Below, in pieces: positions 9,440 through 57,673 of a stretch of DNA of 64,000 bases. The notes below the pieces were generated by a model. The model was not told the origin of the DNA and ran no database searches. It worked only from the letters and a program-made list of their open reading frames with translations. The translations under genes and the position numbers were made by a program. The stretch's first letter is position 1, and the number at the start of each line of letters is the position of its first letter. Source of the DNA: Mesostigma viride (lineage: Eukaryota > Streptophyta > Mesostigmatophyceae > Mesostigmatales > Mesostigmataceae); the NCBI GenBank assembly GCA_009746045.1, contig RPFO01000127.1, positions 1,291,538-1,355,537 of the forward strand, given 5' to 3'.

Positions 9440-9464
9440 ACATGACCTCCCCACGGAGGCATGT
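9440..9464 (+). other. LINE 3'-terminal hairpin (copy B)
   Basis: The outer stem is ACATG/CATGT, with a single bulged A. The inner stem is CCTCC/GGAGG and the loop is CCAC. The AT-rich tail follows directly. The closing inner pair is C-G here but T-A in copy D and A-T in ORF1-E copies. Confidence 0.8.
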
Positions 9465-9600
9465 TATAATTTAATTTAATTTTTAATTCTTACCCCCCAT
9501 GTGCATGCAGGTCACTGGTGAGCTGCAGATCGGTCGGCTGTCCGCCTTCCCCGCGCACGGGGTAAGGCTGGCCCCGCTCCCCTGCTCCTCACCTTTATTG

Positions 9601-11385
9601 TTAATCATCCCACGGTCCTAAATTTAGGACTTTGTCCTAAATCGTCCTAGTGGTCACTATAACCGAGGTACCGGGGGGGGGGGGTCACTATATGGACCGT
9701 ACCCCATGTGGACCGTACCCGGCATGATGTACCCGACCCGTGGTACCGGCACATGGTACCCGGATTCCGTACCCGGGTACCGGGTATAATGGCGGGAAAG
9801 TAGGTACCTCGACCAAAAATATAACCGATTTTGGAGCGAAAAAGTGGGTGCGGGAATGAAGTGAGGTGGATATGGCGACCTGACAATCGTGGCCGGCGTT
9901 TTCACGTGCGTTTATCATTTCGGGCGCCCAGTAGCAAAAACGAAAGGTTGTTAGTTATGCTTAAAGGCTGTGAATATTTTCTGCGCAAGTTTTTATGTGT
10001 AGCGCTGTATCACAGCGGCACAACACAAATGGGTCGCAGATCGCCTGCTCGCGGAGGGTCGATTTTGGCACAAACATGTTAGTGTATTAGCAATGGTGGT
10101 GCGAATCAAGCCAGGAAATTTTGGTGGACGATTTTTATTATAGTCTGGAGTTTAGAAACGGAGTATTTGACATGGGAGCGCCTGGGCCGTGATATTCTTG
10201 CCCGATTTCCATTGTCGACCATGTTTTAGGGACGTTCAGGCTGGGCAGCGAGCGCACCTTATAGGTCTTCACTTTCGGTATTTCTTGGACCTAGAACGCA
10301 GCACAAGCGTGGTTTATACCATTGTCGAACCGGTTGGCCAGCTTTGGTGCGCTCAGCTCTCGGAAAGCTGACCTCGCTGCGGATTTCAGCGACTTTTTTG
10401 CAACCATCTGGAATGAGGCGACGTAAGTAGCAGGTAAGTGCCGGGTTGTCGTAGATCATGAGTGTAACTGGCAACGCTGTCGTGGTGTTTTGAGTCAGCC
10501 AGCTATGCCTAAAGAGAGGGGACGCTCTCTGTGCACATAACTGTCACACATAGTTGGTTTACGTCATACAATTTTTTACGTCTCTATCTTCGTCGTCCGC
10601 TGCAGCTAAAACACACATGCGTAAGAGCAGTTTTACTCATGTGTTAGTTATAAACCATGGTCCTATGGCCTGCAGTCGTTCAGGGTGTTCTCAGACAGTA
10701 TATACAGTATGGTTTACGTGTTACATGCACCCTGAATTCGCTCACAAAGCGTTGCATGTTAGCACAACGTCGTTTTGTAACTTGATTTGGCTGCATTCAT
10801 GTGTTAGTTGCAATGCAAATGCAATGTTTTTTCATCGCTGGGTGGTGGCCAGCATGTCCGTGATGTCAAAGAAGGTTTGGCATATGCTTAGAGAAAGTTT
10901 ACCGCAAGGGGTGGGCCATGTTCAAGCCGGGCAACCTCAGCAACCATGCAACCCTATATTGCATTACCTGCACCATCTGTGACACCGTTAATCACGCGTA
11001 TATATAGAGGCAGCCACAGCAGGGTATGGCCTTGTTATACGCTGCCCCGCCATCCCAAGGCCTCGTAGGGTCCCCTAGCGCTTGTAAGATGCTCAAGGGA
11101 CCGTGTGGATAGCATGGTCATGCGTTGACAATAATTGGTCCTAATGGTCCTAAAACCCACATTTTGGCCAAATTCGCGCTTTGAGGTCTGGCAGGTGGCA
11201 GGGCCCATTCATGCACTAAATGTAATTATTTGACCCCAGGTTTTTGATAGAAACTAAAAAAGTGTGTTATCTGTCATGGGCACGAATGCCAGGGTCAAAT
11301 TTTAATGTTTGCATATATATTTTTTAATTCCACTTGGTCCTAAACTTAGGACTTTTACTGGGAAGATGGACATTATATAGGTACA
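9601..11385. mobile_element. Probable DNA transposon of about 1.8 kb, non-autonomous
   Basis: It interrupts the ORF1 sequence between CTCCTCACCTTTA and TACATGGCGG. The ends carry matching palindromes, TCCTAAATTTAGGA at 9616-9629 and TCCTAAACTTAGGA near 11338-11351. The outer inverted segments are loosely alike (TGTTAATCATCCCA and TGTCCATCTTCCCA). The target duplication may be TTAT but is not certain. A cluster of GGTACC/GTACCCG motifs lies at 9665-9815. No transposase frame was found. Confidence 0.55.
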
Positions 11386-11535
11386 TGGCGGATAAGCTGT
11401 CGTTTCTTAAATGCCGCAAGAATTATCAAGCTCTCGGGGACTTCATGTACACGCTGCATGGACGATCGACGACTTGACCCTGGCACAGCAACAGCGGCGA
11501 CGGGATCGAGCTATGGCCGACCTCCCTCCAGCTGG

Positions 11536-12050
11536 CGTGTGAGCCTGGACAATCGTCTTCCACCTCTTCTTCTTCTGCATAGCCGTCCAAGCATTGAAGA
11601 GAGAGGGAGTGAATGTGATGTTCAAATGGGGCTGGGACCACTAGGTCAGCCAACAACTGCTGCCGTATGTATCTATAGGTCATGACATGTTTACCTACCC
11701 TTTTAGGAATGTCCTTGGGGCCAGGCCGGCCAGGTCAGTCAGGATATGCCGCCCCTGGGCTAGCTGGCCAAGCCGCTGGGGGCCAGGCAGACCGAGATCG
11801 GTGTCTACCTGACTCGAAGTGGTGCGAGCAAGATGTCCTACGAATGCCGGCTATCGACCTACGCAGCCTGTCTAATCTCGTCCGAAATGCGAGGCATACC
11901 CTGGTACAAGGGGCGCTTTGCTGAGTAGAATATTTAGTTAGGGTTTTCCTACTATATGTTAGATCAGCTTAGAGTTATATTAGTTCGGTTTCGCGGCTCC
12001 GCCCCGGCACCTCCATCCATCCAGCAAGGGAATATGTGCTACATGATCTC
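11536..12050 (+). mobile_element. LINE copy C with 5' inversion
   Basis: Bases about 11537-11910 are the RT C-terminal region in reverse orientation. From about 11911 the LINE 3' end (GCTTTGCTGAGTAG and 3' UTR) runs in plus orientation and breaks off within the hairpin at about 12050. The inverted piece matches LINE B at about 8973-9300 and the direct piece starts at about 9338. The two therefore abut in the parent element, as expected for twin priming. Confidence 0.8.
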
Positions 12051-12977
12051 CCAACCGCCGCGAATTTTCTCCGCTCTAGTCGCCCCAGGCTCCAGCGCTT
12101 CGCCCTCTGCTCCCTCCTCGGGCGTTCGATCCGACGCCGATCGAGATCTGGGGTCCCCCTCCAACCGTCGCGACCGAAGCCATCGCCCGCACCCTCCTTA
12201 AAGAAGCTTTCGAGCAGCACGTGACCCCCCTTGCCGCAGATGTGGCGGCAATGGGTCAGGCACGTTGGCTGCTGACGGCTCCCTCTCCACCACCGTCACC
12301 TCCACCTCCACCCTCCTCGCCTGATCCACCTCCACTGCCACCTCCTCCTCCACCGCCGCCCTCACGGCCCAGCTCCTCTCGACGTATCGACCAGCGCCTC
12401 AAGGACACCGCCATCGCCATCGAGTGCATGCATGCAGAACACCGCAGGCATCATGCACCGCCCATGAGCCTGCTGGCGGTGAAGGACATCGCCGCCAAGC
12501 CGGCCAGCCCCCGCTGGCCCAGGCCGACGACGCCCCTCCCACCCAGACCTGGGCGGACCTGCTCAAGCACCACGCCACCTCCACCACCTACACCATCGCG
12601 GCACAGCTTAAGCAGCAAGCCCTCGACCTCCGCGAGGAGGCTGACCGCACCAAGTGCAGCCACATTATGTCATCGTCAAGCACTTCGACCAGCCTGCATA
12701 TGAGACCTCCACGACTCTTCTCACGGCATTTAAGCGCGATGTATTCTAATTGCTCCCATGCATGCACTATCACTGGTGAGCTGCGGACGGTCGGCTGCCC
12801 GCCTTCCCCGCGCGCGGGGTAAGGCTGGCCCGGCTCCCCTGCTCCTCACCTTTAATTAGTACATGGCGGACAAGCTGTTGTTTCTTAAAAACCGCAAGAA
12901 GCTCTCGAGGACCGTCACTCACTTCACGCTGGACGACGACCTGACCCTGGCCCAGCAACAACGGCGACGCGAGCTAT

Positions 12978-15900
12978 TAATTAATTAATTAATTAATTAG
13001 AAACATAAGTCCGTTGGGAGTACATGTAGCACATATCCCGGAGAAGGGGCACTATGGCTTTTAATACATTCTGGGCTACTTCCTGCAAGGGTGGGAATGT
13101 AAGCAACACTTGCTCTAGGTGCACCAAGGCACCTGCACCCTCATGATCTTCACACTATGCCCAACTAAGGGGGAGTATGTCATGCGGGGGAAGATCATCA
13201 TGGCTATACAAGAGCTAGGGCATGGCTTCTCGACAGAGAGCATCTCTCTGCACGGCATAGCATGGCTAAAGTCTTAATGCGACATCCATGCCAGGGGTCC
13301 CATTATAGGCAGGGCGTGGCTAAATTCTGAAGGCGCATCATCCATGGGGGCCATTATGGGCGCACATGCGCGTGGGCCACATGCTAGGCTAAGCCTGACT
13401 AATCTGACACTACTGGTATATATTCCCTAGTCAGTGAGGTGGCAGGGGGGGCCTGCCAGGGCTTGTGGTCAACGTGGATGACCGCCCCCCTCCAGTATAG
13501 TATACCGGCTTCCCCCTTGCGCTCTGCCGGAGCTCATGAAGGTAGGTCGGCCATAGCTCGCGTCGCCGCTGTTGCTAGCTGGGCCAGGGTCAATTAGTCG
13601 TCGTCCAGCGTGAAGCGAGTCTCCGAGAGCTTCTTGCGGCATTTAAGGAACGACAGCTTGTCCGCCATGTGGTTGAAGGTGAGGAGCACGGGTGCCGGGC
13701 CAGCCTTCCCCCGCGCGCGGGGGAGGCGGACAGCCGACATGTCCAGCTCACCACCAGTGAGTGGCATGGGGGCAAAAATGTCGCGCTTAAGGGGACGTGG
13801 CGCGGCGAATATTTTCCGCGCGAAAAAATTCGCGGTACCAGCCGTACCGTGAAAAGTGGGTGCACGGTGCGCGCACCCCATGCGGAAGTGGCCATGGCGA
13901 CTGCGTTTAGGCGAAACTAGCAATGTAGGGCTAGAGAAATGCCAAAAAAATGCTCGAATGTTGAAGACGATGATTTAATGATGTTGGTTTGTGGCGGCAA
14001 GTAGCTGATTTACAATATCGCTGCTTTCTTTTTCTGCCATCGGCATGGGGGGTAAACTGCATTTTTTCGTCGCGCGGAATGAAATAGAATTCGTGATAGC
14101 GGCAATAAATTCGCAGTTTTGGGGGGCTTTTTGACCGCGACGGATGCATTAGTATCGGTAGCATTTAATTCCAAACCGAACTGGTGCTTTTTGCTACATT
14201 TTCGGCCATTCTCGGTAAGTAATTCTTCAGGCCTCCGCAGTGCATGTCGGAACCTTCCATGGAAGAACGGCCTTTGTTGCGCGCCTGGGCGAGGGATCTG
14301 CGAGGGAAAGGTATAGATTTGTCGCGAATGTTCTGTGCTATCAGTTCTTTCTTCTATGAGCTCATCGTTTGAAGTTTTTTTCGTTCTTTTTGGGCAGTTT
14401 CCGCCAGCTAGCTCGCCGTTGCTTGCCGTGGTGTTGTCGAATACCTGGCAGCTTTAGATTGTTTTCGTTGATGTCGTGGTCAAGGCCGCTTCAGTCGAAG
14501 CCTATAGCTTCTCGGGAAGGTTTAAGGTATTTCATGAAACGTGTTCTGGCAAGGATGTTGTGCGTATGGACGCTTCTTGTTGTGTGAGAGTGACGCACCC
14601 TCTCTTCGCAGCGGCATCACAGCCCTCATGCGCTGGGGGCCCGCCAATGGTGTCTTTCCATTTTATCGTGCAGGGGAGGAAGTGTTTTATTGACGATCAT
14701 GTTGGAGATATTGCATTTGTGTGACTGCATGTAGATAGCTGCCACCATTGGTTTATTTGAGCTTTCCCTTGATATGATGATGTGAAAAGACTGCAATGTG
14801 CTGAGCCAACCATGGTTGACATGGTTGACTGCATGCAAGCTTTCTATGCCGTGATCTCCTTGGTTCCTTGCCCTCCATAGTTCCAGTTTGTTGCCCATCT
14901 CAGGTAGGGCAGTAAAGGAGTCGTTGCAGTGTTGATTAGCTTGGTTGGCATAAACCTTAACACTCTAACCTGGGAGAAACATAGAAAATGCTGATTATGC
15001 ATTTTAGTGCCATCATCATTATTGTTATTCACATGCTTATAAGTCTGGCCATGCTCGAGGGACAGTGAAGGGGTATGAGGTGTGTGGCCACCCATTTGTA
15101 CTTCACAACATATTCAGCATGTATTTGATGCATGTTGGATCGCATGTAAAGTGTAATTGTGTTTACTTGGTTGCTGAGTGGTCCTTAGCGCCTTGTCAGG
15201 TGGTCGTCTAGGAAAGCCATCAGAGCGTGCCACAGTGGCCCCCGACCTTGAGCATGTGTCGTCATCAGTGTGCAAGAGTTAGAGGTGCTTTTGGTCATAG
15301 ATTTGCTGAGTTCTTGGCATGAAGTTTACAAGGTATTACCTTGGGTTGAGTATAGTGTATGCTCGCTTGGCATGTATGCCTAGCGATCGTGTTGCTATGC
15401 TTGCGCTGGCAAGGTTGGCCATGCCGAGGGCAGGTGAGGGCAGATGAGGTGCCTAGGCGTTTGCTTATGTTTTGTGATCGAGTTGGGCATGTTTTTTGGC
15501 TTTTTGGATGGAAAACATCATGCCTAAGTGGCCTTGTACAAAGAAAAACCTTCTTTAGCTTATGTTCAGGTTTTAGCACGTATAACCTTATAACTTGAGC
15601 TAGACTTGTCGGAATGACCTGGGACTTGGAAGACAGTTGTCCCCCTGTTAGACGGATTTTCGCTGCAGAAAAAAGTATTTTTTTGACGTGTTTATAAAAA
15701 GTTATTCCCAATGTCCGGTAAAAAAAGGGTCGTTTTGCGGGGAAATTAATAACTGTTCGAGGTTTTGCCCTTTCCATGATGTTAATAGCTCAGCAAGCTA
15801 CAAACTCAGGGAACTAAAAACGCTGCAGGCAGTTTTGCAAACAAATGTGTGCATTGGCTGGGGCATACCCAGCCCTAATTAGCGTCTTTTGCTATTTATA

Positions 15901-16254
15901 GCGCATTATTGGCGTATATATGGGGGTAGTGCCCCCAACAAGTGCATGGACAACTCACTAGAGATGTTATTTAGTGCCCCCAATCATAACTTAGCGTTGT
16001 GCAAATGAATTTCAAGTGATATTACCATAGGTCAATTTTTAAGGGTTTTGGGGTGCCACCTCCCCTTAAATGCCTCAAGAAGGCTCGTGGAGGTCTCACC
16101 TGCCGGCTGGTCGAAGTGCTTGACGATGACATTGTGGCTGCGCCGGGCGATGTCGGCTTCCTTGCGAAGGTCGAGGGCTTGTTGCTTGAGTTGTGCCGAG
16201 ATGGTGGAGGTGGTGGAGCTAGGTGGTGTGCTGCTTAAGCAAGCACACCACGCA
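12978..16254 (-). mobile_element. ORF1-E copy 5 (minus), with 11-bp TSD, interrupted by a TTAA element
   Basis: ACGCGAGCTAT flanks it at 12967-12977 and 16255-16265. The tail (TTAATTAATT...) lies at the left edge, so the element reads on the minus strand. It contains the 3' UTR (13003-13560), the ORF1 C-terminal half (13590-13790) and, beyond the TTAA element, more ORF1 (16070-16248). The 5' end is truncated within the coiled-coil region. About 1 kb remains once the TTAA element is removed. Confidence 0.85.
13791..16065. mobile_element. TTAA-flanked DNA element, copy 1 (2.3 kb)
   Basis: TTAA lies at 13787-13790 and 16066-16069, inside the Phe-Lys codons of ORF1 (TTTAAG), so the empty site is known. 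The termini are GGGGACGTGGCGCG (left) and, reversed from the right, GGGGAGGTGGCACC. This is a short imperfect inverted repeat. No transposase is recognisable; a 160-residue minus frame at 15777-15295 is open but only partly kept in copy 2. The TTAA target suggests mobilisation by a piggyBac- or Kolobok-type transposase. Confidence 0.85.
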
Positions 16255-16842
16255 ACGCGAGCTATATGGCCGACCTACCTCCAGCTCCGGCAAAGCGCAG
16301 GGGGCAAACAGGTATACTGGAGGGGGGAGTCGTCATCCACGTCGACCACTGTCAAGCCTTGGCACTGAGGCACCCCCAGTCTAGGGAACATAGCAGTAGT
16401 GTATATCAGTAAGGCTTAGCCTACCACGCGGCCCCAGCGCATGTGCGCCCATAATGGCCATGGATATGATGCAGTTAAGAATTTAGCCACGCCCTGCCTA
16501 TCAGAATGGGACCCCCATGGATGATGCATTAAGAATTAGCTCAGCCCTGCCTATACAGAGTGTCACTCTCTGATGAGAAGCCATGCCCTAGCTCTTGTAT
16601 AGCAATGGTGATCTCCCCCCCCCCATATGACAGGCCCCCCTTATAGTTGGGTTGAGCTCTGCATATGAGACTCTTGGGGGTGCAGTTGCCCTTGGTGCAC
16701 CTAGAGCAAGTGTCGTTTACATTCCCACCCTTGCAGGAAGTAGCTTAGAATGTATTAAAAGCCATATGCCCCTTCTCTGGGATATGTGCTACATATACTC
16801 CCAACGGAGTCATGTTACTAATTAATTAATTAGTTAATTAAT

Positions 16843-16885
16843 CTCCCAACGGAGTCATGTTATCATTTAATTTAATTTAATTTTA
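16843..16885 (+). mobile_element. Minimal retroelement copy: partial hairpin plus tail only
   Basis: Directly after the tail of ORF1-E copy 4 comes CTCCCAACGGAG, then CATGTTATC and an (ATTTA)n-like tail. This is about 45 bp of retroelement 3' end and nothing else. It is an extreme 5' truncation landed in another element's tail. Confidence 0.6.
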
Positions 16886-17172
16886 CCTCCAGCTACGGCA
16901 GAGCACAGGGGGGAAACCGGTATATACTGGAGGGGGGAGGTCATGAGTGGTCATCCACGTCGACCACAACTGAGCCCTGGCAGGCGCCCCCTGCCACCCC
17001 AGCAAAACCAGTCCAGTAGGAAATATATATAGCAGTAGTGTAGATTAGTCAGGCTTAGCCTAGCACGTGGCTCACGCCTATACGCGCATTGAATTGAATT
17101 GAATTGTAACATAACTCCGTTGGGAGTATATGTAGCACATAGCCCTTGAGGGAGGGCATATGGCCTTTCTTA

Positions 17173-19235
17173 ACGAATCCGGGTGCAACGAAAATGGCTG
17201 ACGGCGGTATGGCTGACGGCGGAGCTCAGATCTTTTGCATCTGAGCCCCAAATTCGGTCAGACCACTCGCATTCGATGCGCTTTTTTGAGACGCACCCGC
17301 CAGTATAATCGGTTACGGCTGAAACGCAGTATTGCGGAAGTTATCACGTGACAGGCAGCTATGACGACCTCTAAAGCAAAACGGGGTTTGGAAAAGGAGC
17401 TTACCGGCTCCCAGCCCAACCCGCTCGCCATCGTTCTTGCCCAGCCGCCTGGGCTCGCCAACCCACCGCCAGCAGCCCCATCGCCCAGCGCCTCGCCTGA
17501 GCCCAAGAAACCCTGCCACGCTCGCAACTGGAGCAAGTTCCTCCCCGGCGACCGACGCTTCGGCTGGACCGTGTGGCAAGAATTGTCGCCGCAGGAATGC
17601 ATTGAGGTTCTCCAGTTCCTCGAACAGGAGCGGAAGCTCTTCGTGCCCAAGGGGGGGCGGCTATCGACTACAATGGAGACATGTCCTGGCTCTATGCTTT
17701 GGACGAAGTACAACAACGCCTGATTATCTTGACCAGCCAATTCCAGAGCCACCTCTCCGACCTCACCCTCACGCTCCGCACCCCAGCCCCCGCACAGCCG
17801 GCAGCCCCATCGGCTTCCTCCCTCTGCAAGGATGACCTCCGCGCAGTGCTGGAGGAGCACGTGACCTGGCCGCTGGCCGAGCAGCTGACATCGCTGAACA
17901 CCACGCTCAACAAGGTCGAGGCCCGGGTCTCCAACGTGGAAACCAAGGTCGTCCACAAGCTCCAACCCCAGTTCACGGCTCTACACACCGCGGAGCAGGC
18001 TTCGGAAAAGCATGCTACACTTGTCTCTCGCCTTAACCAGGTGGAGGGAAAGTGTGGCGTGCTCCTGAAGAAGCTTGAGGCCATCACCGCCCACACCGAG
18101 GCCCTGGCCACACAGGTCCCCAAGATAGCGGAGCAGACGGCCACCATTGCATCCCAGCCACCCCGGCAGGATGCTGGCGACCTCCCGCCGCTCTCCTACG
18201 CGGACCTGCTGCGGTCAGCGACCGCCTCCACCACCGACGCCATCGCCACAAAGCTCCAGGAGCTGGAGAACCACCGCCAGGCCCAGCAACGGGAGGTCAC
18301 CGACCGCGCTCGCCGCGAGTGCCGAGTGGTGCTACGTCGCTTCCCCCAGAAGCCAGGTGAGACGTCAACCTCTCTTGCTGACGAGCTCAAGAACCAGCTT
18401 CTTACCCTCATGGGCCTGGTAGGTGAGGTAGCACTGAGCGGGTGCCACCGCCTTCCCCACTCACGGGACAAGGCGGCTCCCCCACCAGTCCTCCTCACCT
18501 TCCCCTCCCCTGAGGATAAGCAGCGGTTCCTCTCTCGTCGCAAGCGGTTGCACGACCTCACCTGGACGCTGGATGACGACCTCACCCCCGCTCAGCAACA
18601 GCAGCGACGCGACCTGCACATGGCCGGAATACCTCCGCCATAAGCAGGACCCCCAGAAGCCCAAGGTGTACTGGAGGGGCGGGGACCTGATGATCAACCA
18701 CAAGATGTGGACGCCCCCAGCGGGCTAGAATAGCAATAGCCCTAGATTGTAACCCTTGGCGTCACTGCCGCTAAGGCAGCCATGCCTAGACTATTTGCCT
18801 AGCTGTGCCAACACACCTAGTCACGTGCCGCCAACGCACGGTCCACCACCAGCCATAGCCTAGTACAGCCATGCTACGCCCTGGCTATGTTTAGCCAAGC
18901 CATGCCTATAATGGGACCCCCCCATGGATGTTGCATTAAGAATTTAGCCATGCTATGCCATGCAGAGAGATGCTCTCTGTCGAGCAGCCATGTCCTAGCT
19001 CTTGTATAGCCATGCTGATCTTCCTCCCTCACAGGCATGCTCCCCCCCTTACCCGGGCATAGCGTGATAGACCATGAGGGTGCAGGTGCCCTGGTGCACC
19101 TAGAGCAAGGGTAGCTTACATTCCCACCCTTGCATGAAGTAGCCTAGGATGTATTAAAAGCCATATGCCCCTTCTCAGGGATATGCGCTACATTGACTCC
19201 CAACGGAGCGATGTTGATAATTAATTAATTAATTA
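17173..19235 (+). mobile_element. ORF1-E copy 2, apparently full length (2.06 kb)
   Basis: A 13-bp duplication, ATGGCCTTTCTTA, lies at 17160-17172 and 19236-19248. The element has a 5' UTR with repeated GGCTGACGGCGG, a single ORF1, a 3' UTR of about 0.5 kb, a hairpin at 19190-19214 and a (TTAA)n tail. There is no endonuclease or RT sequence anywhere. It must depend on enzymes from elsewhere. Confidence 0.85.
17361..18643 (+). pseudogene. L1 ORF1-like protein of ORF1-E copy 2, frameshifted
   Basis: A first frame (17361-17723) starts MTTSKAKRGLEKEL. A second (17681-18643) continues with a long helical region of heptad character (about residues 40-180) and then a basic RRM-like part: RRECRVVLRRFPQK, CHRLPHSR, PVLLTFPSPEDKQRFLSRRKRL, TLDDDLTPAQQQQRR. 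This order, coiled coil then RRM then C-terminal domain, is that of L1 ORF1p, an RNA-binding trimer of retroelement RNPs. The two frames need one shift near 17690. Past 18643 a shifted frame reaches a stop at about 18728 (NHKMWTPPAG), matching the usual ORF1 end. Confidence 0.75.
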
Positions 19236-19849
19236 ATGGCCTTTCTTACATCCTAAGCTACTTCCTGCAAGGGTGGGGATGTAAAGGACCCTTGCTCTAG
19301 GTGCACCAGGGCACTTGCATCCCCATGATCTTCAAGCTATGCCCAGCGAAGGGGGAGCCTGTCATGGGGGGGAAGATCAGCATAGCTATACAAAAAAGCT
19401 AGGGCATGGCGTCTCAGCAGAGAGTTACTCCCTGCATAGGCACGACATAACTAAATAAAGCTAGGCATCGTCTGGAGGGTGGCTCATCATAGGCACACAT
19501 GTACATGATTAAATAAAGCGCGTGGCTTAGCTGGGATAGTGCCTCTAGGAGGCGTACATGTACATGGCCACGGTCTATTCTACACTACTACTGCTGTATT
19601 CGATCCCCTAAGCTGGGGCGTCTGGAGTCGCTGGGGCCGCGGGGGTCGCCTGCCAGGGCTTGTGGCCGACGTAGATGGCCGCCCCCTTCCAGTACGTACA
19701 CCGGCTGCCCCGCCTTGGTCTGCCGGAGCTGGAGGTAGGTACGTGCGCCTATAATGGGAGTCACTCCCCATGGATGCCTGCATTAAGAATTTAGCCAAGC
19801 CCTGCACCTATGCAGCGAGCTACTCTCTGCTGAGAAGCCACGCCCTAGC

Positions 19850-20137: not shown

Positions 20138-20434
20138 CATATGTTTAGCCATGATGATCGTCCACCCTATGTCCGCACCTTAGGTGCATGTTGGATCATG
20201 TTGGAATATACATATAGTACGTTGCACGTGCACTTTGTGCACCCAGAGCAGGTGTAGTTTACACCCTACCCGTGCAGGAAGTAGCACACATGCAATGTAT
20301 CTCTGATCTCAAGCCATACATGCCCCTTCTCAGGGATATGTGTTACATGTACTCCCAATCAACGGAGATATATATGCTAAAATTTCTTTTCCATCCTTGA
20401 CCGCTCTGTCACGGACCTCTGGACCCCCTCCCCC

Positions 20435-21154: not shown

Positions 21155-21174
21155 CACTAGGAACTCGGCTTTGA

Positions 21175-26429: not shown

Positions 26430-26574
<145 letters not shown>

Positions 26575-29880: not shown

Positions 29881-29887
29881 GTGAGGA

Positions 29888-31790
29888 TTATTCCTTGTCA
29901 TGGGGGCATACAGGACGGGTTACTTATTCCTTGTCATGGGGGCAGGCAGGACAAGTTAATTATTCCTTGTCATGGGGGGCAGGCAGGACGGGTTAATTGT
30001 TCCTTTTCATGGGGGCAGGCAGGGCGGGTTAATTATTCCTTGTCATTAGGGGCAGGCAGGACGGGTTAATAATTCCTTGTCATGGGGGCAGGCAGGACGG
30101 GTCACTTATTCCTTGTCATGGGGGCAGGCAGGACGGGTCAATTATTCCGTGTCATGGGGGCAGGCTGGACCTGTTAATTATTCCTTGTCATGGGGGCAGG
30201 CGGGACGGGTTAGTAATTCCTTGTCTTGGGGGCAGGCAGGGCGGGTGAATTATTCCTTTTTATGGTGACAGGCAGAACGGGTTAATCACTCCTTGTCATG
30301 GGAGGCAGGCAGGACGGGTTACTTATTCCTTGTCATGGGGGGCAGGCGCATTGCATATACATTTATTCCTTGTCATGGGGGGCAGGCAGGACGGGTTAAT
30401 TGTTCTTGTCATGAGGGGACGGCAGGGGGGGCTCATGATACCCTGTAGTGGGGTGGGCGAAGGCAGGGGGGGTTAATGATTCCCTGTCATGGGGTGGGGG
30501 AAGGCAGGGGGGGTTAACGATTCCTTGTGTCCATGGGGGGCAGGCAGGACGGGTTTCTTATTCCTTGTCATGAGGGGAAGGCAGGGGAGGTAAATGATTT
30601 CCTGTCGTGGGGTGGGAGAAGGCGGGGGTAATAATTTTTCCTTGCCATGGGGGCAGGCAGGACAGGTTAATTATTCCTTGTCATGGGGGCATGCAGAAAA
30701 GCTTAAAAATTTCTTGTCATGGGATTGAAAGCACCTCACAGTCAGTTGTCCTCCCTTACGAAATGGCGATTTTGTAGCTACATGATTAACAGAGCATATG
30801 CTCTAAATCTTGTAGCAATGGACCGCGTTATATTTCTGTTGGCGACTACTTTCAAACATTCATCATTTTTGTTTTTCTTTTACATTTGTCTTGTTGCGGA
30901 CAGGGAGGGTTGATTGCCTTTTCATGGGGGGCAGGCAGGGGTGGGGGTTACTCCTTGTCATGGGGGGCAGGCAGGGGGGGTTGATTGCCTTTTCATGGGG
31001 GGCAGGCAGGGGCCGGGGCTTAATTATTCCTTGTAATGTGGTGCAGGCAGGGGGGGTAATGATTCATTGTCATGGGGGGCAGGCAGGGGGGGGGTAACTC
31101 CTTGTCATGGGGGGCAGGCGGGGGGGGGGTAATTATCCCTTGTCATGGGGGTTCAGGCAGAGGGGGCTAATCCTTGTCACATGGGGGGCAGGCTGCGTGG
31201 GTAATTTTTCCTTGTAATTAGGCAGGCAGGGGGGGTAGTTGATCCTTGTCATGGGGGACATGCAGGGGGGGGCAATGATTCCTTGTCGTGGGGGGCATGT
31301 AGGGGGCGTCAAGTGTTCCTTGTTATGTGGGGCAGGCAGGGGGGGGATGATTCTTGTCGTGGGGGGCAGGCAGGGGAGGGGATGATTCTTGTCGTGGGGG
31401 GCAGGCAGGGAGTGTTAATTATTCCTTGTCACGGGGGGCAGACAGGGGGGGGCAATGATTCCTTGTCGTGGGGGGCAGGTAGCGGGGGTTAGTTGTTCCT
31501 TGTCGTGGGGGGCAGGCAGGGGGGGTCAATGATTCCTTGTCATGCCCGGGGCAGGTAGGGGGCGTAATTATTCCTTGTATTGGGGGCCAGGCGGGGGGCG
31601 TTAATCGTTGTCATGGGGGGCAGGCAGGGGGGTTTAATCCTTGTCATGGGGGGCAGGCAGGGGGGCTTGTTCCTTGTCATGGGGGACAGGTATGGGGGGG
31701 AGATTATTCCGCGTCATGGGGGTAGGCAAATGGGTTAGTTTTTCCTTGTCATGGGGGGCAGGTGGGGCAGCTTTATAATTCCTTGTGGTG
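29888..31790 (+). repeat. Minisatellite of about 36-bp units in two blocks
   Basis: The unit is roughly TTCCTTGTCATGGGGGCAGG then CAGG.CGGGTTAATTA. The first block (29888-30720) is the more regular and the second (30900-31790) is degenerate. Each block is followed by the same segment of about 170 bp (30721-30900 and 31793-31955, sharing AGCACCT, ATTAACA, ACATATGCTC, TTTTTGTTTTTCTT). The array and its flank were therefore duplicated as a unit. Confidence 0.85.
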
Positions 31791-32976: not shown

Positions 32977-34334
32977 TGGCGCAGCAACAACGGCGACGGG
33001 AGCTATGGCCGACCTACCTCCAGCTCCGGCAGACCAAGGCGGGCCAGCCGGTGTACTGGAAGGGGGCGGCCATCTACGTCGGCGTCCTTCCCCCTGACAG
33101 TTTGCCGCTGGTCCTCATTTTTGTTGACTATATCAAGGCCTTTGACACGGTCCTCTGGGAGGCTCTTTGGGCCATCCTAGCTCTGGACCGCGTGCCACCA
33201 GCGTTTATTGCTGCCATTCGCCGACTGTATGAGGGCTCACAGGCAGTAGTGCGGACTGCGGAAGGCACCACCCCACCATTCCCCCTTCACCACGGGGTGT
33301 GGCAAGGTTGTGTCCTGTCTCCATACCTGTTCATTATTGTCGTGGACCACGTCATGCGCCAGGCACGTGCGCGCTTTACTGCTCTTAAGGGGTTCGAGCC
33401 AGGCTTGGACATCCTTAACGAGCGTGGGCACGGCGGGGTTAGCACGGGTTACCGCCTGGCTGACCTGATTTATGCGGACGACACCACCCTCATCGCGCGC
33501 CCCGAGCACATTCAGACCTGGCTGGACTGTCTGGGCCTGGAGGCGAGGGCGGTGGGGTTGGAGATTAGTGTCAAAACTGAGGCGATGGTGATTGGGGCCT
33601 CCAGTCGCCCGCCGCTGCCGCGCCTGCTAGACGGGACGGAGGTCCCACTCCGCGACCGCTTCAAGCTGTTGGGGAGTTGGCTTCCGGACACTGCCGACGA
33701 TGTGGACACCCGCATCGGCCTTTCCTGGGCCAAGCTCCGTTCGCTCAACACCTACTGGCGCTCCAAGGGCCTGGACGAGCACCGCAAGCGCATGCTCTTC
33801 AAGGTCCTCGTCCTCACGGTGCTCACGTATGGCGCCGAGGCATGGACACTCACGGCAACACTGGCAGCCAAGCTAGACGGCACGGTCACCCGGATGCTCC
33901 GACAGGTCCTGAATGTCGGGTTTTCTCAGCGTAGGTCCTTAGAGTCTTTGTATCACGGTATGCCGCGTATTTCGGACGAGATTAGACAGCGTAGGATAGC
34001 ATTTGTAGGACATCTTGCTCGCACCAGCCAGGTCGACACCGCCCTTGGTCTGGCCGGTCCCCAGCGGCTCGGCCAACCGGGGCGGCACATTTTGACCTGG
34101 CCTGGCCCCAAGAACATTCCTAAAAAGGTAGGGAAACACGCCATGACCTATACCCAGATGTTGCTGGACGACCTAGTGGTCCCAGCCCAGTTTGAGTACC
34201 GCATCCACTCTCTCTCCCGTCTTTGGACTGCCATGCAAGACAAGACGCGGTGGAAGAAGATTGTCAAGGCGCACACGCCAGCCCCTGTGGGCAAGCCGCC
34301 TCCCCCCAAACGGAGGAGCCGTTTTGATGAGTAG
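32977..34334 (+). CDS. Accidental fusion frame: ORF1 C-terminus joined to LINE RT
   Basis: The frame reads through the ORF1 C-terminus (AQQQRRRELWPTYLQLRQ ... WKGAAIYVG) and then straight into RT at LPPDSLPLVLIFVDYIKAFD, for about 450 residues. The RT part keeps motif A, GVWQGCVLSP, the YADD box and the C-terminal region, but it lacks the fingers before motif A. The fusion is a by-product of LINE D landing in frame in ORF1, as the TSD shows. It would not be an active polymerase. It has no start of its own and would be read, if at all, only after loss of the CACTA element. Confidence 0.75.
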
Positions 34335-34477
34335 CGTAGATAGGCTTTTCTAGACTAGATATAGCTTAGAGTTAGGTTAGTTCGATTACGCGGCTTCCTC
34401 CACACCACCCATCCAACCTGGAATATGTGCTACATGATCTCCCAACGGAGACATGTTATAATTTAATTTAATTTTTA
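33084..34477 (+). mobile_element. LINE copy D, 5'-truncated, with 12-bp TSD
   Basis: ATCTACGTCGGC lies at 33072-33083 and 34478-34489. The copy starts in RT just before motif A and ends in the 3' UTR, the hairpin (34432-34456) and a TTTAATTTAATTTTTA tail. It differs from LINE B at only a few sites, so both are fairly young. Confidence 0.92.
34432..34456 (+). other. LINE 3'-terminal hairpin (copy D)
   Basis: Outer stem ACATG/CATGT, bulged A, inner stem TCTCC/GGAGA, loop CAAC. All ten pairs are Watson-Crick. The tail starts at once. Confidence 0.85.
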
Positions 34478-34954
34478 ATCTACGTCGGCCATAAGCCCTG
34501 GCAGGCGACCCCCCCCCCCCCGCGGCCCCAGCGACTCCAGACGCCCCAGCTTAGGGGAATATAGCAGTAGTAGTGTAGAATAGATAGACCGTGGCCATGT
34601 ACATGTACGCCTCCTAGAGGCACTATCTCAGCTAAGCCACGCGCTTTACTTCATCATGTACATGTGTGCCTATTATGAGCCACACCCCAGATGATGCCTA
34701 GCTTTATTTAGTTCTGTTGTGCCTATGCAGGGAATAACTCTCTGCTGATCGACGCCATGCCCTAGCTTCTTTGTATAGCTATGCTGATCTTCCCCCCCAT
34801 GACAGGCTCCCCCTTCGCTGGGCATAGCTTGAAGATCATGGGGATGCCAGTGCCCTGGTGCACCTAGAGCAAGGGTCCTTTACATCCCCACCCTTGCAGG
34901 AAGTAGCTTAGGATGTATGATAGGCCATACGCCCCCTCTCAAGGGCTATGTGCT

Positions 34955-34979
34955 ACATATACTCCCAACGGAGTTATGT
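34955..34979 (+). other. ORF1-E 3'-terminal hairpin (copy 3)
   Basis: Outer stem ACATA/TATGT, bulged T, inner stem ACTCC/GGAGT, loop CAAC. Compared with the LINE hairpin, two pairs have changed on both sides (G-C to A-T and T-A to A-T). Confidence 0.85.
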
Positions 34980-35025
34980 TACAATTCAATGCTAAAATTT
35001 GATTAAATTAAATTTAATTATTGTT

Positions 35026-41468: not shown

Positions 41469-44400
41469 GGCCTTGGCAGGATAGCGTCCGGGAGGTTGCA
41501 AAAGGAGCTGAAGGAGTGGCAGACTTCGCCGCCCGATGGCTTCAGTAGACAAGAGAGTGACAATTTGCAAAGGTGCGAGAGCAATTGCAGGACGCGATGC
41601 ACGGCTTACTATAGCCTAGGGAAGCTGCAATTTTTGGCCATTTGGAGGCTGCAAGGAGGCTGTAAGAAGTCATACGATGTATGTACATACTATGTATCCC
41701 GATGTGTATGAAGATATCTAGTTTTTCTTTCTCTTGTCTCCCAGGCACCGTAGCGATGGCAGTCACGGTTGCCTGTTGCTGTGTTGGGCTCATGCGGCAT
41801 GTATATACCAGGATGGTGAAATCCAGGACTGCCCACACGGCTCGCTTGTGAATCTGGGGTAGCCCAGTAGGTCAGCTATCTTGGGGCTGAACGGGTGTGC
41901 ATCGCTGGGAGTGACTTGGACCGTTGGGAGGATTGCCGGGGGTGCTGTGACGCCCAGGTACACGGGTTTGATGTCGAGGCTGACAGCATTAGCAGCACAT
42001 CATGCTGAAAGCTTTCACAAACTGTGTTTAATTGCGTGTCTCTCCTGCCAGGGGGTGCCCCCATTAAAACAATAAAATTCCATGTCAGGTCATGTACGTT
42101 TACAAACCCGTGCTGGATGTTGCCAGCCATTCGCTCGATATGCACCACTCTTATGCCGCCATGGGCAAGCATGTCTTGGCTGCAAGGTCTGTATTCTGTG
42201 GCATCCAGCCGGCTTGACATGCCCTTGCCTTGGCGGTGATGAAGCATAGTTTTGAGGTACCATGCTACTAGCACTTGAACAAAGAACTGCACCTCTGATT
42301 ACGCGCTGCTTATGCACCCTGCGCGGTGTACATTCTGCGCTATTATGATCACCCTGCAGTTGGGTGATCACGATGCAAGGGGCGCCAGGCACGCTGTACG
42401 CGGGGGAGCGTTTCCGGTTGCAGATCAACTTCCCCTCCGACTACCCCATGGAGTCGCCCGAGGTAATGGCTTAGTTACTGTACTCTAGCTGATGAAGCCG
42501 CTTGAGGTATTGGCTTATTTCCTTTAGTGGCGCTATAACTAGAGTATAGGTGTGCCCATGGTTGTACGCAATACTCTGTTAGGGGTTTGCATGTGTGTGT
42601 TTGCATGTGTGTGTTTGTATGTGTGTGTTTGTATGTGTTGTGTGTGTGTTTGTATGTGTTGTTTGCGTGTGCGTGTGCGTGTGCGTGTGCGTGTGCGTGT
42701 GCGTGTGCGTGTGCGTGTGCGTGTGCGTGTGCGTGTGCGTGTGCGTGTGCGTGTGCGTGTGCGTGTGCGTGTGCGTGTGCGTGTGCGTGTGCGTGTGCGT
42801 GTGCGTGTGCGTGTGCGTGTGCGTGTGCGTGTGCGTGTGCGTGTGCGTGTGCGTGTGCGTGTGCGTGTGCGTGTGCGTGTGCGTGTGCGTGTGCGTGTGC
42901 GTGTGCGTGTGCGTGTGCGTGTGCGTGTGCGTGTGCGTGTGCGTGTGTGTGTGCGTGTGCGTGTGCCTGTGCGTGTCTGTGTCTCTGTGTGTGTATTTGT
43001 GTTAATGCCGTCCCTGCAGTTGCGTCGCATTCAAACCGACAAACCTGGCGGCTTGCAGTTCCCCTCTTCTCCCGCTCTGTCCTTCTCTGCTGTTCTGCAA
43101 CGGTGATCAGCCAGGGGCCGGCGTGGGACTTGAAGCCATAAATAGCCCTGCATGGAAGACGACGAGGCCCTGGCATGAATGAGATGAGGGCGGGGGGAAG
43201 ACTGAGAGGGGGGGGGGGGGGTAGTTGGCTGCCATGCCCAGGGCAGTGAATGACCGAGTGATTGCATGCATGCACATGGCACTTGGCAGGGGCCCTTTGG
43301 GCCCCCGTGTTCGTAGGGATATCCCTTTCCAGTCTTATCCCCGCCGCCAGTTCTTTTTGTGGCAGCTCTCCCTTTCCTTTTGTTTTTCCCTCTCTGACAA
43401 ACCTGTGTGCCATCTCCTATGGCATTGTGCTCGGCCCCCGTGCTGCGTCATGCTTGATCCCGCCATGGGCGCGCAGGTCCAATTTGTGGACGTTCCGATC
43501 CACCCTCACATCTACAGCAACGGCCACATCTGCCTGGGTACGTGCGCGGAGATGCCAGCGCACTGTAATCGTGTGATGCATTGCCCCATGCTGCCCCCCC
43601 CCCTTGGCCCATTGTTGGGAAATACGGAGCAACATTCTTGAGCGCTTTGGTGGGGCATGTATTTGGGCTTGGGTGACACATGCATCCCTTGGGATTCAGC
43701 TTTGTGTGTCTTTATGTAAACACTAGGTGGACCTCACTCACGCGTGTGCCTTGTATTTGTGCCTGGTGACGTTGCGAGCAGATATCCTGTACAGCGGCTG
43801 GTCTCCCGCCCTCACCGTGTCGTCGGTCTGCATTAGCCTCCTCTCCATGCTGTCGAGCTGCACAGAGAAGGTGAGCCGCGTCCCTCGTCCGCATGAGCCT
43901 GCCTCCTCTACTACGGTGGGCAGCCTAACTATGTGCAGGGTTCCTCGTAGGTAATCTACAAAGCGGGCCCCGCGGCCTTCTTGTGCTCGATGTGCTGCAC
44001 AGAGAAGAAGGCATGCCTCATGTTGGCACAGGCCATGAGTAGACATAACTAACCATGCACCGAGCATGCCTTTCGGCGATTGTCTGAGCGCCACCACACG
44101 CGGCATGCATGGATGCTTGTAGTGCGGTCATGAAATGTAAAGGGTTTGGGGGTTCGGGTCTTCGGGACGTGGGTGCCGCTGTGTGGTAGTGCGCATTAAA
44201 ATTGTGTGGTTGCGGAGCGGTAGTCCCACCCCCCCGGTGTGCTGTTTCTGCTTCAGTGTGCCGCAGTCAGCGTCGTCTTTCTTTGCATGTGCGCATGCTG
44301 GTCTCATGGACATAGTGGCAATTTCATACCTCTCACGTTGCCTCGCCCCTTTCCCTGTTTGGCCGCTCTCATGCCCGCCGTGCGCTCTAAACCTGAAAAC

Positions 44401-46729: not shown

Positions 46730-47514
46730 TGTAACGACTAAAAATGATCATCAACATCATCCACAGTCCAATATGAAAGATCTTTTACCTGGGTTGCTTT
46801 CTTGAGTCGCAGAACTTCAAGTATCCGAGCAACGTTGAGATGGAAATTCCACAGCACGTGATTTAGGGAATCACAACCCCTTGTAGACACAAAGACAAGC
46901 TCGTGTATAGACGACCTCTGTGGAACTGAAGGACGTCTATAGCCAAGGGGCTCTTATGAATGGACAACAAAGACAAGCTTTATTATACCATGGTGAATCA
47001 AAACCAACGTCCCAACAATTAAAATGGCGACCCCACGTCCTTGATATCGACGTGCTTGTCGAACTTGCTCCAACCTTAGCCTGAAGAGAACCAATCAGAA
47101 TCATGGAATTCTATACAAGATCTTCGTATCCATCCTAGTCACACAAAACAGAACAACACCACACACAGCCTGGCAGAATCTTTCCATGAGATCCTAAATC
47201 TGTCGTAAGCACTGAAGTCCCAAAGGAGCATTTAAGACTCAATAGTACCAACTAACAAACTACAACCCCACGTGGATCAGGCCACGACCAATGAGGGCTC
47301 CTATCAGTAGTACCAACCAACAAACTACAACCCTACGTGGATCAGGCCACGACCAATGAGGGTTCCTATCAGTTGGTTGACAAAGTATCAGCTCCAAGTA
47401 CCATCGTCTTAGAAACCTCATAACTTTCTCAATACTGATCCAAAAGTCCTCGAATAAAAGCCAAACATTCACAAAACAAAGGATGTAACAACAAAGTCAT
47501 TTTTGCTTGTTACA
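46730..47514 (-). repeat. LTR (3' LTR of the minus-strand element), 785 bp
   Basis: It differs from the other LTR by one 6-bp insertion (TTAAAA-like, near 47020) and very few substitutions. Inside is a direct duplication of about 65 bp (ACGTGGATCAGGCCACGACC occurs twice, 47271-47350). Confidence 0.93.
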
Positions 47515-47908
47515 TATCTCCCCCTCAAAACTGGACCTCCCAGGTCCAATAGCCAACTCTTGAAGGCAGAGGAACATTGAACAGAAATCCACCATCTCTT
47601 GGGAAAAGCAGATGGGTTTTTTCATCCCTGGAAACAGGGCCTCCTATCTCATAAACATCTAGTCACAGGTCTCTACAGCAGACAAGTCACTACCTTATCT
47701 ACTATAAATCCAGATAAACACATCTCAAAAGACAAGGTCTTCCATTCAGCATCCTGGAACCTGGAACTCTGGACTGGAACATCAGAACTGGACTGGAGCC
47801 CCCCCCCCCATCATCCATCCTGGAATCCCCCCCTCACACCACAATCCAAAGCACCTTCCATGCTCTTCCCCCATCCTTCCCCATCCTCTTCCTTCTCAAC
47901 TCTGTTCT

Positions 47909-49606: not shown

Positions 49607-49609
49607 AAT

Positions 49610-51970: not shown

Positions 51971-51978
51971 CACCTCCT

Positions 51979-53594: not shown

Positions 53595-53602
53595 CACCTC
53601 CT

Positions 53603-55055: not shown

Positions 55056-55059
55056 TTTT

Positions 55060-55293
55060 CTAGGGAGAGGTGAAGGAGAAGAAGTTCGCCCACACCTGGT
55101 TCCGTAAGGATGAAGGTGATTGTGTAACCCGCCTCACTTCAGTCATAGAAGTACGATTGAAATTGAGTTGACGCCGTGGAGTATGAGTAGTTGTCTCAGC
55201 ACCTTCCCTAGCAATGGGTTCCAGAGATGATGACGGATCTCCCAAACCTTGATTAGTAGGGGGTAAAGGTGATTGTGTCTTCGAACTACTCAT
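55060..55293 (-). pseudogene. Possible gag N-terminus of the LTR element
   Basis: This is the first ATG frame after the primer binding site. It is 77 residues and Ser/Pro-rich (MSSSKTQSPLPPTNQGLGD...), with an end like SSLRNQVWANFFSFTSP. The position fits gag, but no capsid motif or CCHC zinc knuckle follows. Support is from position only. Confidence 0.35.
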
Positions 55294-55520
55294 ACTTCCA
55301 CATGGAGTCGCGATCGTCTGCCTAGTAGAGACAACGGTTACGGCTGACTTCTAGTGTTACAGAGCAAGACAGTCACATCAGGATGTGTCTCAGTCTGTAA
55401 CACCGTAAGTTTTCCGCAACTCTATGAATCTTCTCGGATGACAGACATCTGATCAACGTTGTACTACCCGGAAGGTTGCGACTTCAAGAGAAACACCAAA
55501 GTAGAGACCTCCGATACCAA

Positions 55521-56299
55521 TGTAACGACTAAAAATGATCATCAACATCATCCACAGTCCAATATGAAAGATCTTTTACCTGGGTTGCTTTCTTGAGTCG
55601 CAGAACTTCAAGTATCCGAGCAACGTTGAGATGGAAATTCCACAGCACGTGATTTAGGGAATCACAACCCCTTGTAGACACAAAGACAAGCTCGTGTATA
55701 GACGACCTCTGTGGAACTGAAGGACGTCTATATCCAAGGGGCTCTTATGAATGGACAACAAAGACAAGCTTTATTATACCATGGTGAATCAAAACCAACG
55801 TCCCAACAATGGCGACCCCGCGTCCTTGATATCGACGTGCTTGTCGAACTTGCTCCAACCTTAGCCTGAAGAGAACCAATCAGAATCATGGAATTCTATA
55901 CAAGATCTTCGTATCCATCCTAGTCACACAAAACAGAACAACACCACACACAGCCTGGCAGAATCTTTCCATGAGATCCTAAATCTGTCGTAAGCACTGA
56001 AGTCCCAAAGGAGCATTTAAGACTCAATAGTACCAACTAACAAACTACAACCCCACGTGGATCAGGCCACGACCAATGAGGGCTCCTATCAGTAGTACCA
56101 ACCAACAAACTACAACCCTACGTGGATCAGGCCACGACCAATGAGGGTTCCTATCAGTTGGTTGACAAAGTATCAGCTCCAAGTACCATCGTCTTAGAAA
56201 CCTCATAACTTTCTCAATACTGATCCAAAAGTCCTCGAATAAAAGCCAAACATTCACAAAACAAAGGATGTAACAACAAAGTCATTTTTGCTTGTTACA
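55521..56299 (-). repeat. LTR (5' LTR of the minus-strand element), 779 bp
   Basis: It starts TGTAACGACT and ends GCTTGTTACA on the plus strand. It is nearly identical to 46730-47514 apart from the 6-bp insertion there. Confidence 0.93.
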
Positions 56300-57648
56300 T
56301 GTGTAGCCTTGTGCATTGAAATTATGGCTGGCTTACAACGTACATGACTCCGTTGGGAGATCATGTAGCACGTATTCCCTTGTTGGATGGGTGGAGGTGG
56401 GCGAAGCCGCGAAAACCGAACTAAGCTAATTAAGGGGAGGTGGCACCCCAAAACCCTTAAAAATTGAACTAAGGTAATAACACTTGAAATTCATTTGCAC
56501 AATGCTGAAATATGATTGCGGGCACTAAATAACATCTCTTGTGAGTTGTCCATGCACTTGTTGGGGGTACTACCCCCAAGTATACGCCAATATTGCGCTA
56601 TAAATAGAAAAAGACGCTAATTAGGGCTGGGTATGCCCCAGCCAATGCACACATTTGTTGGCAACCAAAAATCAACCATTTGTAGTTCCCTGAGTGTGTA
56701 CCTTGCTGAGCTATTTACATCATGGAAATGGCAAAACCTTGAACAGTTATTAATTTTCCCGCAAAACAGGTCTTTTTTTACCGGACATTGGGAATAAACA
56801 TATCATAAACACTTCAGATAAGGCCACAAAATCAAGCGAAAATCCGGCTAACAGGGGGACAGCAGTGGTCCAAGTCCCAGGTCATTCCGACAAGTCTAGC
56901 TCAAGTTATAAGGTTTTGCGTGCTAAAACCTGAACATACGCTAAATGAGGTTTTTCTGTGTATAAGGCCACCTAGACATCATGTTTTCCATCCAAGAAGC
57001 CAAAAAACATGCCCAACTCGATCACACAACATAAGAAAAGGCTAGGCACCTCATCTGCCCTCCCCTGCCCTCAGCATGGCCAGCCTTGCCAGCGTGCGCA
57101 TAGCAACACCATCGCTAGGCATACACGCACCAAGAGAGCATACACTAAGCTCAGCCCAAGGTTACCATGTAAATTTATGCCAAGAACTCAGCAAGTATAC
57201 GTGTAAAAACCTTAGAAATACTGCCCAAGCAATAGAGGCATCTGCAGCCTGCAAACTTGGCAGCAAATCTTACATGTTGTCTGCCAAGCATTCACATCCT
57301 ATCCAGCTTGCCTTGCTGCACACATAGCAGGGAAGTCTTAATGGTTATAGCTCAAGGAAAGCAATGGAAACACCTATCTAATGCAATGCCACTCATGCAG
57401 TATGGCCAGCAAAAGAACCACTCTCACCTTCCTTTCCAATAGGGCAATTTGCTAAGAAGCTGATGCCAGCTTGTTAGCCTCTAGGCACATGCCGGATGTC
57501 GTTCTTAAACAGGCGTGTCAGATCCGGCACATAACAAAGCGTCTGAGCAAGCTCACGTCCAAAGGATTATGGAAAACAAATGTCAACACATTACCAACAA
57601 CTTGACCTCGGCGCATTTAGCATTAATTAATTAATTAATTAATTATCA

Positions 57649-57673
57649 ACATCACTCCGTTGGGAGTAGATGT
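57649..57673 (-). other. ORF1-E 3'-terminal hairpin (copy 1)
   Basis: On the minus strand: outer stem ACATC/GATGT, bulged T, inner stem ACTCC/GGAGT, loop CAAC. The fifth outer pair is C-G, where the LINE has G-C and other ORF1-E copies have A-T. Confidence 0.85.

Follow-up and report, generated by a model that had tools for sequence, protein, structure and literature searches.

A long interspersed nuclear element (LINE) and a shorter retroelement that encodes only a first open reading frame (ORF1) end in the same conserved 25-nt hairpin in a 64,000-nt stretch of Mesostigma viride DNA, hereafter the window. The two families share this specific 3' end and its stem-loop in the manner of LINEs of the stringent type and their partners. 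We consider, with a probability of about 0.74, that the hairpin serves as the signal by which a stringent-type LINE recognizes the 3' end region of its RNA, and that the ORF1-only element borrows the ORF2 protein of that LINE. The presence of one conserved hairpin at the end of both families, proposed in an initial annotation of the window, is borne out in the window and genome-wide.

The hairpin, whose bases are numbered 1–25, has an outer stem of four pairs plus a variable fifth one (5-21), then a one-base bulge, and an inner stem in which a variable closing pair is followed by four further pairs and a CAAC or CCAC loop. All nine copies listed in the initial annotation are present at the coordinates given there, and a pattern scan of the window allowing up to three mismatches found ten places, against 0.02 expected from dinucleotide shuffles. 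The tenth, at 16836, is half of the hairpin of a LINE copy (LINE Z) divided by an insertion that carries the hairpin at 16791. On the forward strand, the hairpin of LINE copy A (9440–9464) has G-C at pair 5-21 and C-G at pair 7-20, and that of LINE copy B (34432–34456) has G-C and T-A. RNAfold predicts ten pairs in seven of the nine complete hairpins. In the hairpin at 56342, the partner of base 20 is base 6, which leaves base 7 as the bulge (10 bp, −11.1 kcal/mol), a paired form seen in 13 of 100 listed genomic copies; the bulge of the hairpin at 19190 has likewise moved from base 6 to base 7, with base 6 paired to base 20. Because the bulge slides in this way, neither copy need be mismatched. 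Three hairpins had been read as mismatched older copies, which holds for 16791 (mismatch at pair 5-21) and 13003 (pair 8-19) but need not hold for 56342, where sliding restores ten pairs. Directly upstream of the hairpin lies TATGTGCT, common to both families, with seven or eight of its eight bases matching in 28 of the 34 LINE-type copies and in 50 of the 55 ORF1-type ones. The common block runs from these roughly 8 bases through the hairpin into an AT-rich tail, so that the hairpin is not the only shared 3' feature, as had been thought. Most LINE copies have tails of the form TATAATTTAATTTAA..., and most ORF1-only copies TACAATTCAATTC..., TCCTAATTAATT... or TGATAATTAATT....

The hairpin is abundant in the genome. 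With up to two mismatches, the pattern occurs at 18,525 places in the 439.9-Mb genome (9,259 forward and 9,266 reverse), compared with one place for the reversed-pattern control. Scanning 257 Gb of prokaryote contigs for the exact pattern gave a single hit, in Pseudomonas, a match we take as chance. The exact pattern is absent from the viral contigs scanned, where no relative of the LINE reverse transcriptase (RT) was found either. A search of Rfam returned no family at its gathering score. Together, the window and 50 fetched loci (labeled in the style of L001, for example L006, L043, and L052) provide a set of 102 hairpins; the sequence before the hairpin is of the ORF1-only type in 61, of the LINE type in 33, and unassigned in 8. 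This set includes duplicates; 92 hairpins are distinct, and 89 remain after three remnant halves are dropped.

The fold of the stem is kept while its letters change, most clearly at pair 5-21. The 100 genomic copies as listed match the pattern exactly, and only positions 5, 6, 7, 13, 20, and 21 are free to vary; because of this exact fit, the eight other pairs cannot vary among them. Pair 5-21 is A-T in 39 copies, G-C in 39, C-G in 7, T-G in 6, G-T in 5, and non-standard in 4, for a total of 96 standard pairs. Base 20 is paired with base 6 or base 7 in 97 copies, and keeps one of these partners because the bulge slides. Collapsing the listed copies leaves 24 distinct forms. Of these, 20 have a standard pair 5-21, where permutation gives 12.2 on average (p 9e-5), and 22 have a partner for base 20, where it gives 20.0 (p 0.13). 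Permutation of the nine window copies gives p 0.010 for pair 5-21 and p 0.097 for base 20. The covariation score is 0.154. Shuffled alignments score 0.053, with none of 500 reaching the observed value, and sliding gives no more than 0.039. The stem is kept by compensatory change at pair 5-21, and the evidence at base 20 is at most suggestive.

These changes might in principle reflect shared descent alone. Were the ORF1-only element an internal-deletion derivative of an old LINE, the hairpin would be a leftover that recent amplification has spread, and the pair changes would be founder alleles of a few subfamilies. The forms are indeed few and uneven (one accounts for 34 of the 100 listed copies), the common block and tail fit such an origin, and the test at base 20 is weak. 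Three observations speak against this explanation. First, pair 5-21 covaries in the 53 ORF1-only copies with p 0.0006 in a tree-aware test that derives its trees from 120 upstream bases and redistributes substitutions at random, and four branches changed on both sides; the test also took in 28 LINE copies, leaving out 8 unassigned ones. Second, LINE copies A and B are 97.1% identical over 1,394 bp, yet their hairpins differ at 3 of 25 positions, two of which are the partners 7 and 20. Third, the bodies of the two families differ whereas the hairpin persists. We regard an origin by descent alone as very unlikely.

The ORF1-only element is represented in the window by two apparently full-length insertions. 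The first (17173–19235, forward strand, 2,063 bp) has an ORF1 part at 17681–18643 and its hairpin at 19190–19214, and is flanked by the target-site duplication (TSD) ATGGCCTTTCTTA at 17160–17172 and 19236–19248. The second (57624–59615, reverse strand, ~1.99 kb) has ORF1 parts at 58067–58891 and 58898–59449, its hairpin at 57649–57673, and the TSD ATGCTAAATGC at 59616–59626 and 57613–57623. We judged both full-length because they have a common 5' sequence, which aligns from base 37 of one and base 40 of the other onward. Neither contains a frame of RT size, and a self-comparison of the window found no similarity between them and the LINE copies outside the 3' end region. The 2.0-kb element occurs as apparently full-length insertions with ORF1 and without ORF2, the composition of a half-L1 (HAL1)-like element. 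The remaining copies are partial. On the forward strand, the 3' part at 34490–34979 (rest at 32977–33083; hairpin 34955–34979, with A-T at both variable pairs) is the host of LINE B, and the 3' part at 16242–16840 (5' part at 12056–12977; hairpin 16791–16815) is inserted within the LINE Z hairpin. On the reverse strand, the 3' end at 17098–17172 (continuing at 19236–19740; hairpin 17109–17133) is the host of the element at 17173–19235, and a copy at 12978–13789 (rest at 16070–16241; hairpin 13003–13027) is split by a transposon at a TTAA site. A TSD scan of the nine hairpin copies found four exact duplications of 11–13 nt: 11 and 12 nt in LINE A and LINE B, and 13 and 11 nt in the two full-length ORF1-only insertions. 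All four begin with AT, an agreement that is partly built in, as these are also the last letters of the tail. At 16836, the scan gave an 11-nt match explained by the nested host, and it gave no credible TSD at the hairpins 13003, 17109, 34955, and 56342.

The protein encoded by ORF1 is predicted to be of the L1 type. The ORF1 frames align to 92 proteins, 91 of which are Mesostigma viride gene models, with up to 97% identity; the gene models are ~470 residues long in many copies, and one of them, P0048 (472 residues), represents 32 sequences. A Pfam search of ORF1 gave no match above the cut-off. The AlphaFold model, which is of low confidence (pLDDT 56, pTM 0.26), places in order a long coiled coil, a β-α-β-β-α unit, and a C-terminal α-β-β unit. 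In a Foldseek comparison of this model with the PDB, human LINE-1 ORF1p takes ranks 1–8, with a best E of 2.7e-5; six of these matches have E ≤0.001, and ranks 7 and 8 have 0.012 and 0.020. The model is thereby consistent with the L1-type order of coiled coil, RNA recognition motif, and C-terminal domain. The ratio of nonsynonymous to synonymous substitution rates over a 223-codon part is 0.48 pooled, with a median of 0.42 over 207 pairs (range 0.09 to 1.2), in a set of 21 copies and a reference in which the reference appears a second time and some loci overlap, and the values include neutral decay after insertion; they suggest that ORF1 was constrained in the source elements. Mesostigma gene models among P0043–P0134 are ORF1-only copies, some of which also carry the unrelated Pfam domains PF02517, PF08282, PF03124, and PF01435 within one model. 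The ORF1-only copies have been predicted as host genes, and the Mesostigma gene set is accordingly inflated by this element.

LINE copy A (6430–9485, forward strand) is a 5'-truncated insertion with an RT region at 7544–9358 (RVT_1, E 1.8e-23), followed by the hairpin and an AT tail, and flanked by the TSD ATTCTTACCCC at 6419–6429 and 9486–9496. Copy B (33084–34477, forward strand), also 5'-truncated and nested in an ORF1-only copy, has the TSD ATCTACGTCGGC at 33072–33083 and 34478–34489. The left part of LINE Z (11534–12055, forward strand), recognized by self-blastn and from its sequence, ends at position 12055, where its hairpin is broken by an ORF1-only insertion; the right half of the hairpin and the tail, identified from the sequence, lie at 16841–16882 on the same strand. 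The 5' piece of LINE Z is inverted, as in twin priming. A further LINE 3' end (56342–56429, reverse strand), which shares 85% identity with LINE B across 88 nt, contains the hairpin 56342–56366, with G-C at pair 5-21; past 56429 lies a TTAA transposon, whose ends were read by eye, and LINE sequence resumes at 60323–60539. The RT is 92% identical to the Mesostigma viride gene model P0002 over 54% of the RT length, and its sequence matches in the PDB include R2 retrotransposon proteins and LINE-1 ORF2. Among 73 scored RT matches in the genome, drawn from 28,162 first-look candidates, 37 are listed at 100% identity over residues 73–604 or more, the window's own copy included, and the activity of the LINE looks recent. 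Upstream of the RT in LINE A, a Pfam search of 6362–7501 gave no match; PF03372 and/or PF14529 are annotated on four relatives that are 31–32% identical to the RT (P0005, P0008, P0009, and P0010). In the upstream stretch fetched for locus L052, the LINE is cut at the equivalent of window position 7385 and adjoins an element with an ORF1-only-like 5' end. The 5' end of this joined element (reverse strand, 2840–4501 of L052) is 71% like that of the ORF1-only family, and its middle part recurs in L040; it perhaps belongs to a third subfamily.

A set of LINE insertions reduced to little more than the hairpin bears most directly on its function. Among 34 LINE-type copies, five have only 1, 1, 1, 2, and 4 nt of LINE-like sequence upstream of the hairpin, and the remaining 29 have 63 nt or more; the five short copies begin at the stem base or a few bases upstream. 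Upstream family sequence is never shorter than 16 nt in 55 ORF1-type copies. We found TSDs of 18 nt in L006, 12 nt in L037, and, reading by eye, at least 13 nt in L039, and no clear TSD in the flanks of the hairpin-only copies L040 and L044. Genome-wide, TGTGCT directly precedes the hairpin in 3,706 of 4,269 exact LINE-type ends. Fifteen of the first 100 listed ends lack it, and a reading of all fifteen one by one, with nine additional upstream stretches, assigned 7 to hairpin-only insertions (two of them, L053 and L055, judged on 40 upstream bases only) and 8 to copies whose LINE 3' untranslated region bears a mutation. Because hairpin-only LINE insertions carry clear TSDs (three of the five read with both flanks), the hairpin of ~25 nt and the tail seem sufficient for insertion, which says nothing on whether the hairpin is necessary. 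They are the strongest sign that all the enzyme requires is contained in these two parts.

The same insertions can be considered under a different role for the hairpin, namely that it sets or protects the RNA 3' end through termination, processing, or stability, while the RT reads the AU-rich tail alone. The fixed place of the hairpin right before the tail in both families fits such a role, and the hairpin-only LINE insertions could derive from a processed RNA cut at the stem base, which would also fit their absence from the ORF1-type sample. A processing signal by itself, however, leaves insertions of hairpin and tail with TSDs unexplained unless the RT accepts hairpin and tail. Moreover, the AT-rich tails vary among families and subfamilies although the hairpin core is constant, and in other LINEs a 3' stem-loop is bound by the LINE protein in the experiments described in excerpts of PMC4176376. 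We hold a purely RNA-maturing hairpin to be unlikely.

Under the preferred reading, in which the hairpin is a recognition signal, the ORF2 protein (RT and a presumed endonuclease) of the LINE would bind the hairpin, the AU-rich tail after it would pair with the nicked target, and target-primed reverse transcription would begin in the tail, where slippage may vary the number of tail repeats. The ORF1-only element would bring its own L1-type ORF1 protein together with the same hairpin and a similar tail, and would borrow the ORF2 protein. From the common end and the similar TSDs, we infer that this LINE, and not an unseen one, moves the ORF1-only element. The initial annotation regarded the hairpin as probably the signal read by the LINE RT; the hairpin-only insertions with TSDs support a role for it in copying, and its reading by this particular RT is the inferred part of that proposal. 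A mutual division of labor is conceivable, in which the LINE supplies endonuclease and RT only, while both families obtain their ORF1 protein from the ORF1-only element, the more abundant of the two. If so, the hairpin would be an address that gathers both RNAs in one particle, and the ORF1-only element would be needed by the LINE and no plain parasite. We think such a split retrotransposon quite unlikely.

Several observations weigh against a recognition signal read by the LINE enzyme, or narrow its basis. First, the evidence for covariation comes mostly from a single pair in a single family and from how the two families differ. Both strands were expected to change together, and they do so at pair 5-21 among ORF1-only copies and between the families; in LINE copies, the pair is almost always G-C and hardly varies (standard in 27 of 28 copies, with too little change for the tree-aware test, p 0.71). 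Covariation above phylogenetic expectation had likewise been anticipated at two pairs and is found at 5-21 in the ORF1-only family, whereas base 20 is weak even with a sliding bulge allowed (p 0.049 for LINE and 0.21 for ORF1-only copies). Second, the block common to the LINE and the ORF1-only element also takes in the 8 bases 5' of the hairpin. Third, every LINE copy that was read, A and B included, falls short of full length. Fourth, hairpin-only copies are found in 5 of 34 LINE-type but 0 of 55 ORF1-type copies (Fisher p 0.007), which counts against pausing of the RT at the hairpin in both families, as such pausing predicts hairpin-only copies of the ORF1 type.

Insertions into the hairpin itself raise the possibility that the inverted repeat works at the DNA level, attracting new insertions as a cruciform or a preferred target site. 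In the window, ATCTCCCAAC at 12046–12055 and again at 16841–16850, identified by eye, is the 10-nt TSD of the ORF1-only insertion in the LINE Z hairpin. The junction at 16836 was also considered as a template jump from LINE RNA to ORF1 RNA, which is ruled out by the left half of the LINE at 11534–12055 and by the TSD flanking the insertion; judged by these flanks, the junction is a nested insertion. ORF1-only copies lie inside a resident LINE or ORF1-only hairpin in 5 of the 89 distinct sampled copies (12046–12055/16841–16850 in the window, L043 at 2301, L010 at 1501, L009 at 1501, and L045 at 2783), and a second case with a TSD is that in L043. Genome-wide, a tail ending in ATTAAT is joined to the LINE hairpin interior at one base (the main site, ACATG/AT) in 21 places, against none in the control; 10,000 to 14,000 insertions, an assumed total, would yield 0.05 to 0.07 if they were spread uniformly. 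The number is far above uniform expectation but small in absolute terms, a tiny share of all insertions, and the remaining TSD sites in the window have no hairpin. The hairpin is not a frequent insertion hot spot, since the main site counts only 21 cases and the sample of 89 over-represented them. We give a role for the hairpin as DNA hardly any credence.

A large part of the window is a nest of LINE and ORF1-only elements, together with a TTAA DNA transposon and simple repeats. The repeat at 13790–16069 and from 56430 was considered as a third hairpin-bearing retroelement and rejected, as its ends, TTAAGGGGA(C/G)GTGGC, and its TTAA site identify it as a DNA transposon. Its two copies, delimited by eye at 13790–16069 and from 56430 to ~60320, lie in an ORF1-only copy and in a LINE 3' untranslated region, respectively; the latter itself contains the ORF1-only copy 57624–59615. 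Elsewhere, repeats at 46730–47515 and 55521–56300 are 99% identical over 786 bp and have a 65-bp tandem unit. Microsatellites and arrays occupy 26433–26570 (AG), 42664–42976 (TGCGTG), 29887–31762 (a 1.9-kb minisatellite of ~36-bp units), and 62447–62680 (a GAGGAGAGGC array).

Parts of this arrangement have counterparts in other organisms. In Drosophila, HeT-A is a Gag/ORF1-only element that depends on the RT of another element, TART or TAHRE, and is telomere-specific; we know of no common hairpin of the Mesostigma kind in that system. The other comparisons draw on excerpts of the cited papers. UnaL2 of eel and ZfL2-1 and ZfL2-2 of zebrafish similarly have a 3' stem-loop followed by a short repeat and form LINE/SINE (short interspersed nuclear element) pairs with a common 3' tail, and in the zebrafish LINEs experiments established that the stem-loop is required and that its recognition is loop-specific (PMC4176376). 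Unlike these pairs, the Mesostigma partner is 2 kb long and encodes an ORF1 protein, and the host is a streptophyte alga. LINE1-1_ZM with ZmSINE2 in monocots and L1-1_CR with SINEX-3_CR in Chlamydomonas also combine a LINE with a non-autonomous partner through a common 3' end, and the monocot hairpin carries compensatory mutations; in Mesostigma, by contrast, the hairpin sequence and tail differ and the partner carries ORF1 (PMC3747384). Mammalian HAL1 resembles the ORF1-only element as a non-autonomous LINE derivative encoding ORF1p only, whereas human L1 mobilizes poly(A)-tailed RNAs and the Mesostigma elements have a specific hairpin and AU-rich tail (PMC5753468). Zepp and ZeppL of chlorophyte algae are LINEs that insert into copies already present and show 5' truncation, but they form one cluster per chromosome and have a poly(A) end, in contrast to the rare in-hairpin nesting in Mesostigma, with 21 places at the tested site (PMC3446292, PMC8226300, PMC3747384).

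The excerpts on repeats consulted in two Mesostigma genome papers do not describe the hairpin-sharing pair (PMC6947507, PMC7027972), and we found no description of an ORF1-coding partner that uses a strict hairpin in open-access full text. A LINE and partner with a 3' hairpin and ORF1-only derivatives are each known; the Mesostigma partner combines the two. Ohshima, in the portions of PMC3747384 consulted, which make no mention of Mesostigma, proposed a strict-type ancestral L1 for green plants from evidence in monocots and Chlamydomonas. Mesostigma belongs to the earliest-diverging streptophyte lineage, according to excerpts of PMC7027972; the proposal would need its LINE to be of the L1 clade. 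The broader question is how LINE enzymes choose their RNA, and how recognition shifted from a strict 3' structure to poly(A). Mesostigma offers a clear 25-nt signal, thousands of natural copies, RT matches listed at 100% identity, and minimal insertions of hairpin and tail, so that the RNA signal is directly testable with very short substrates.

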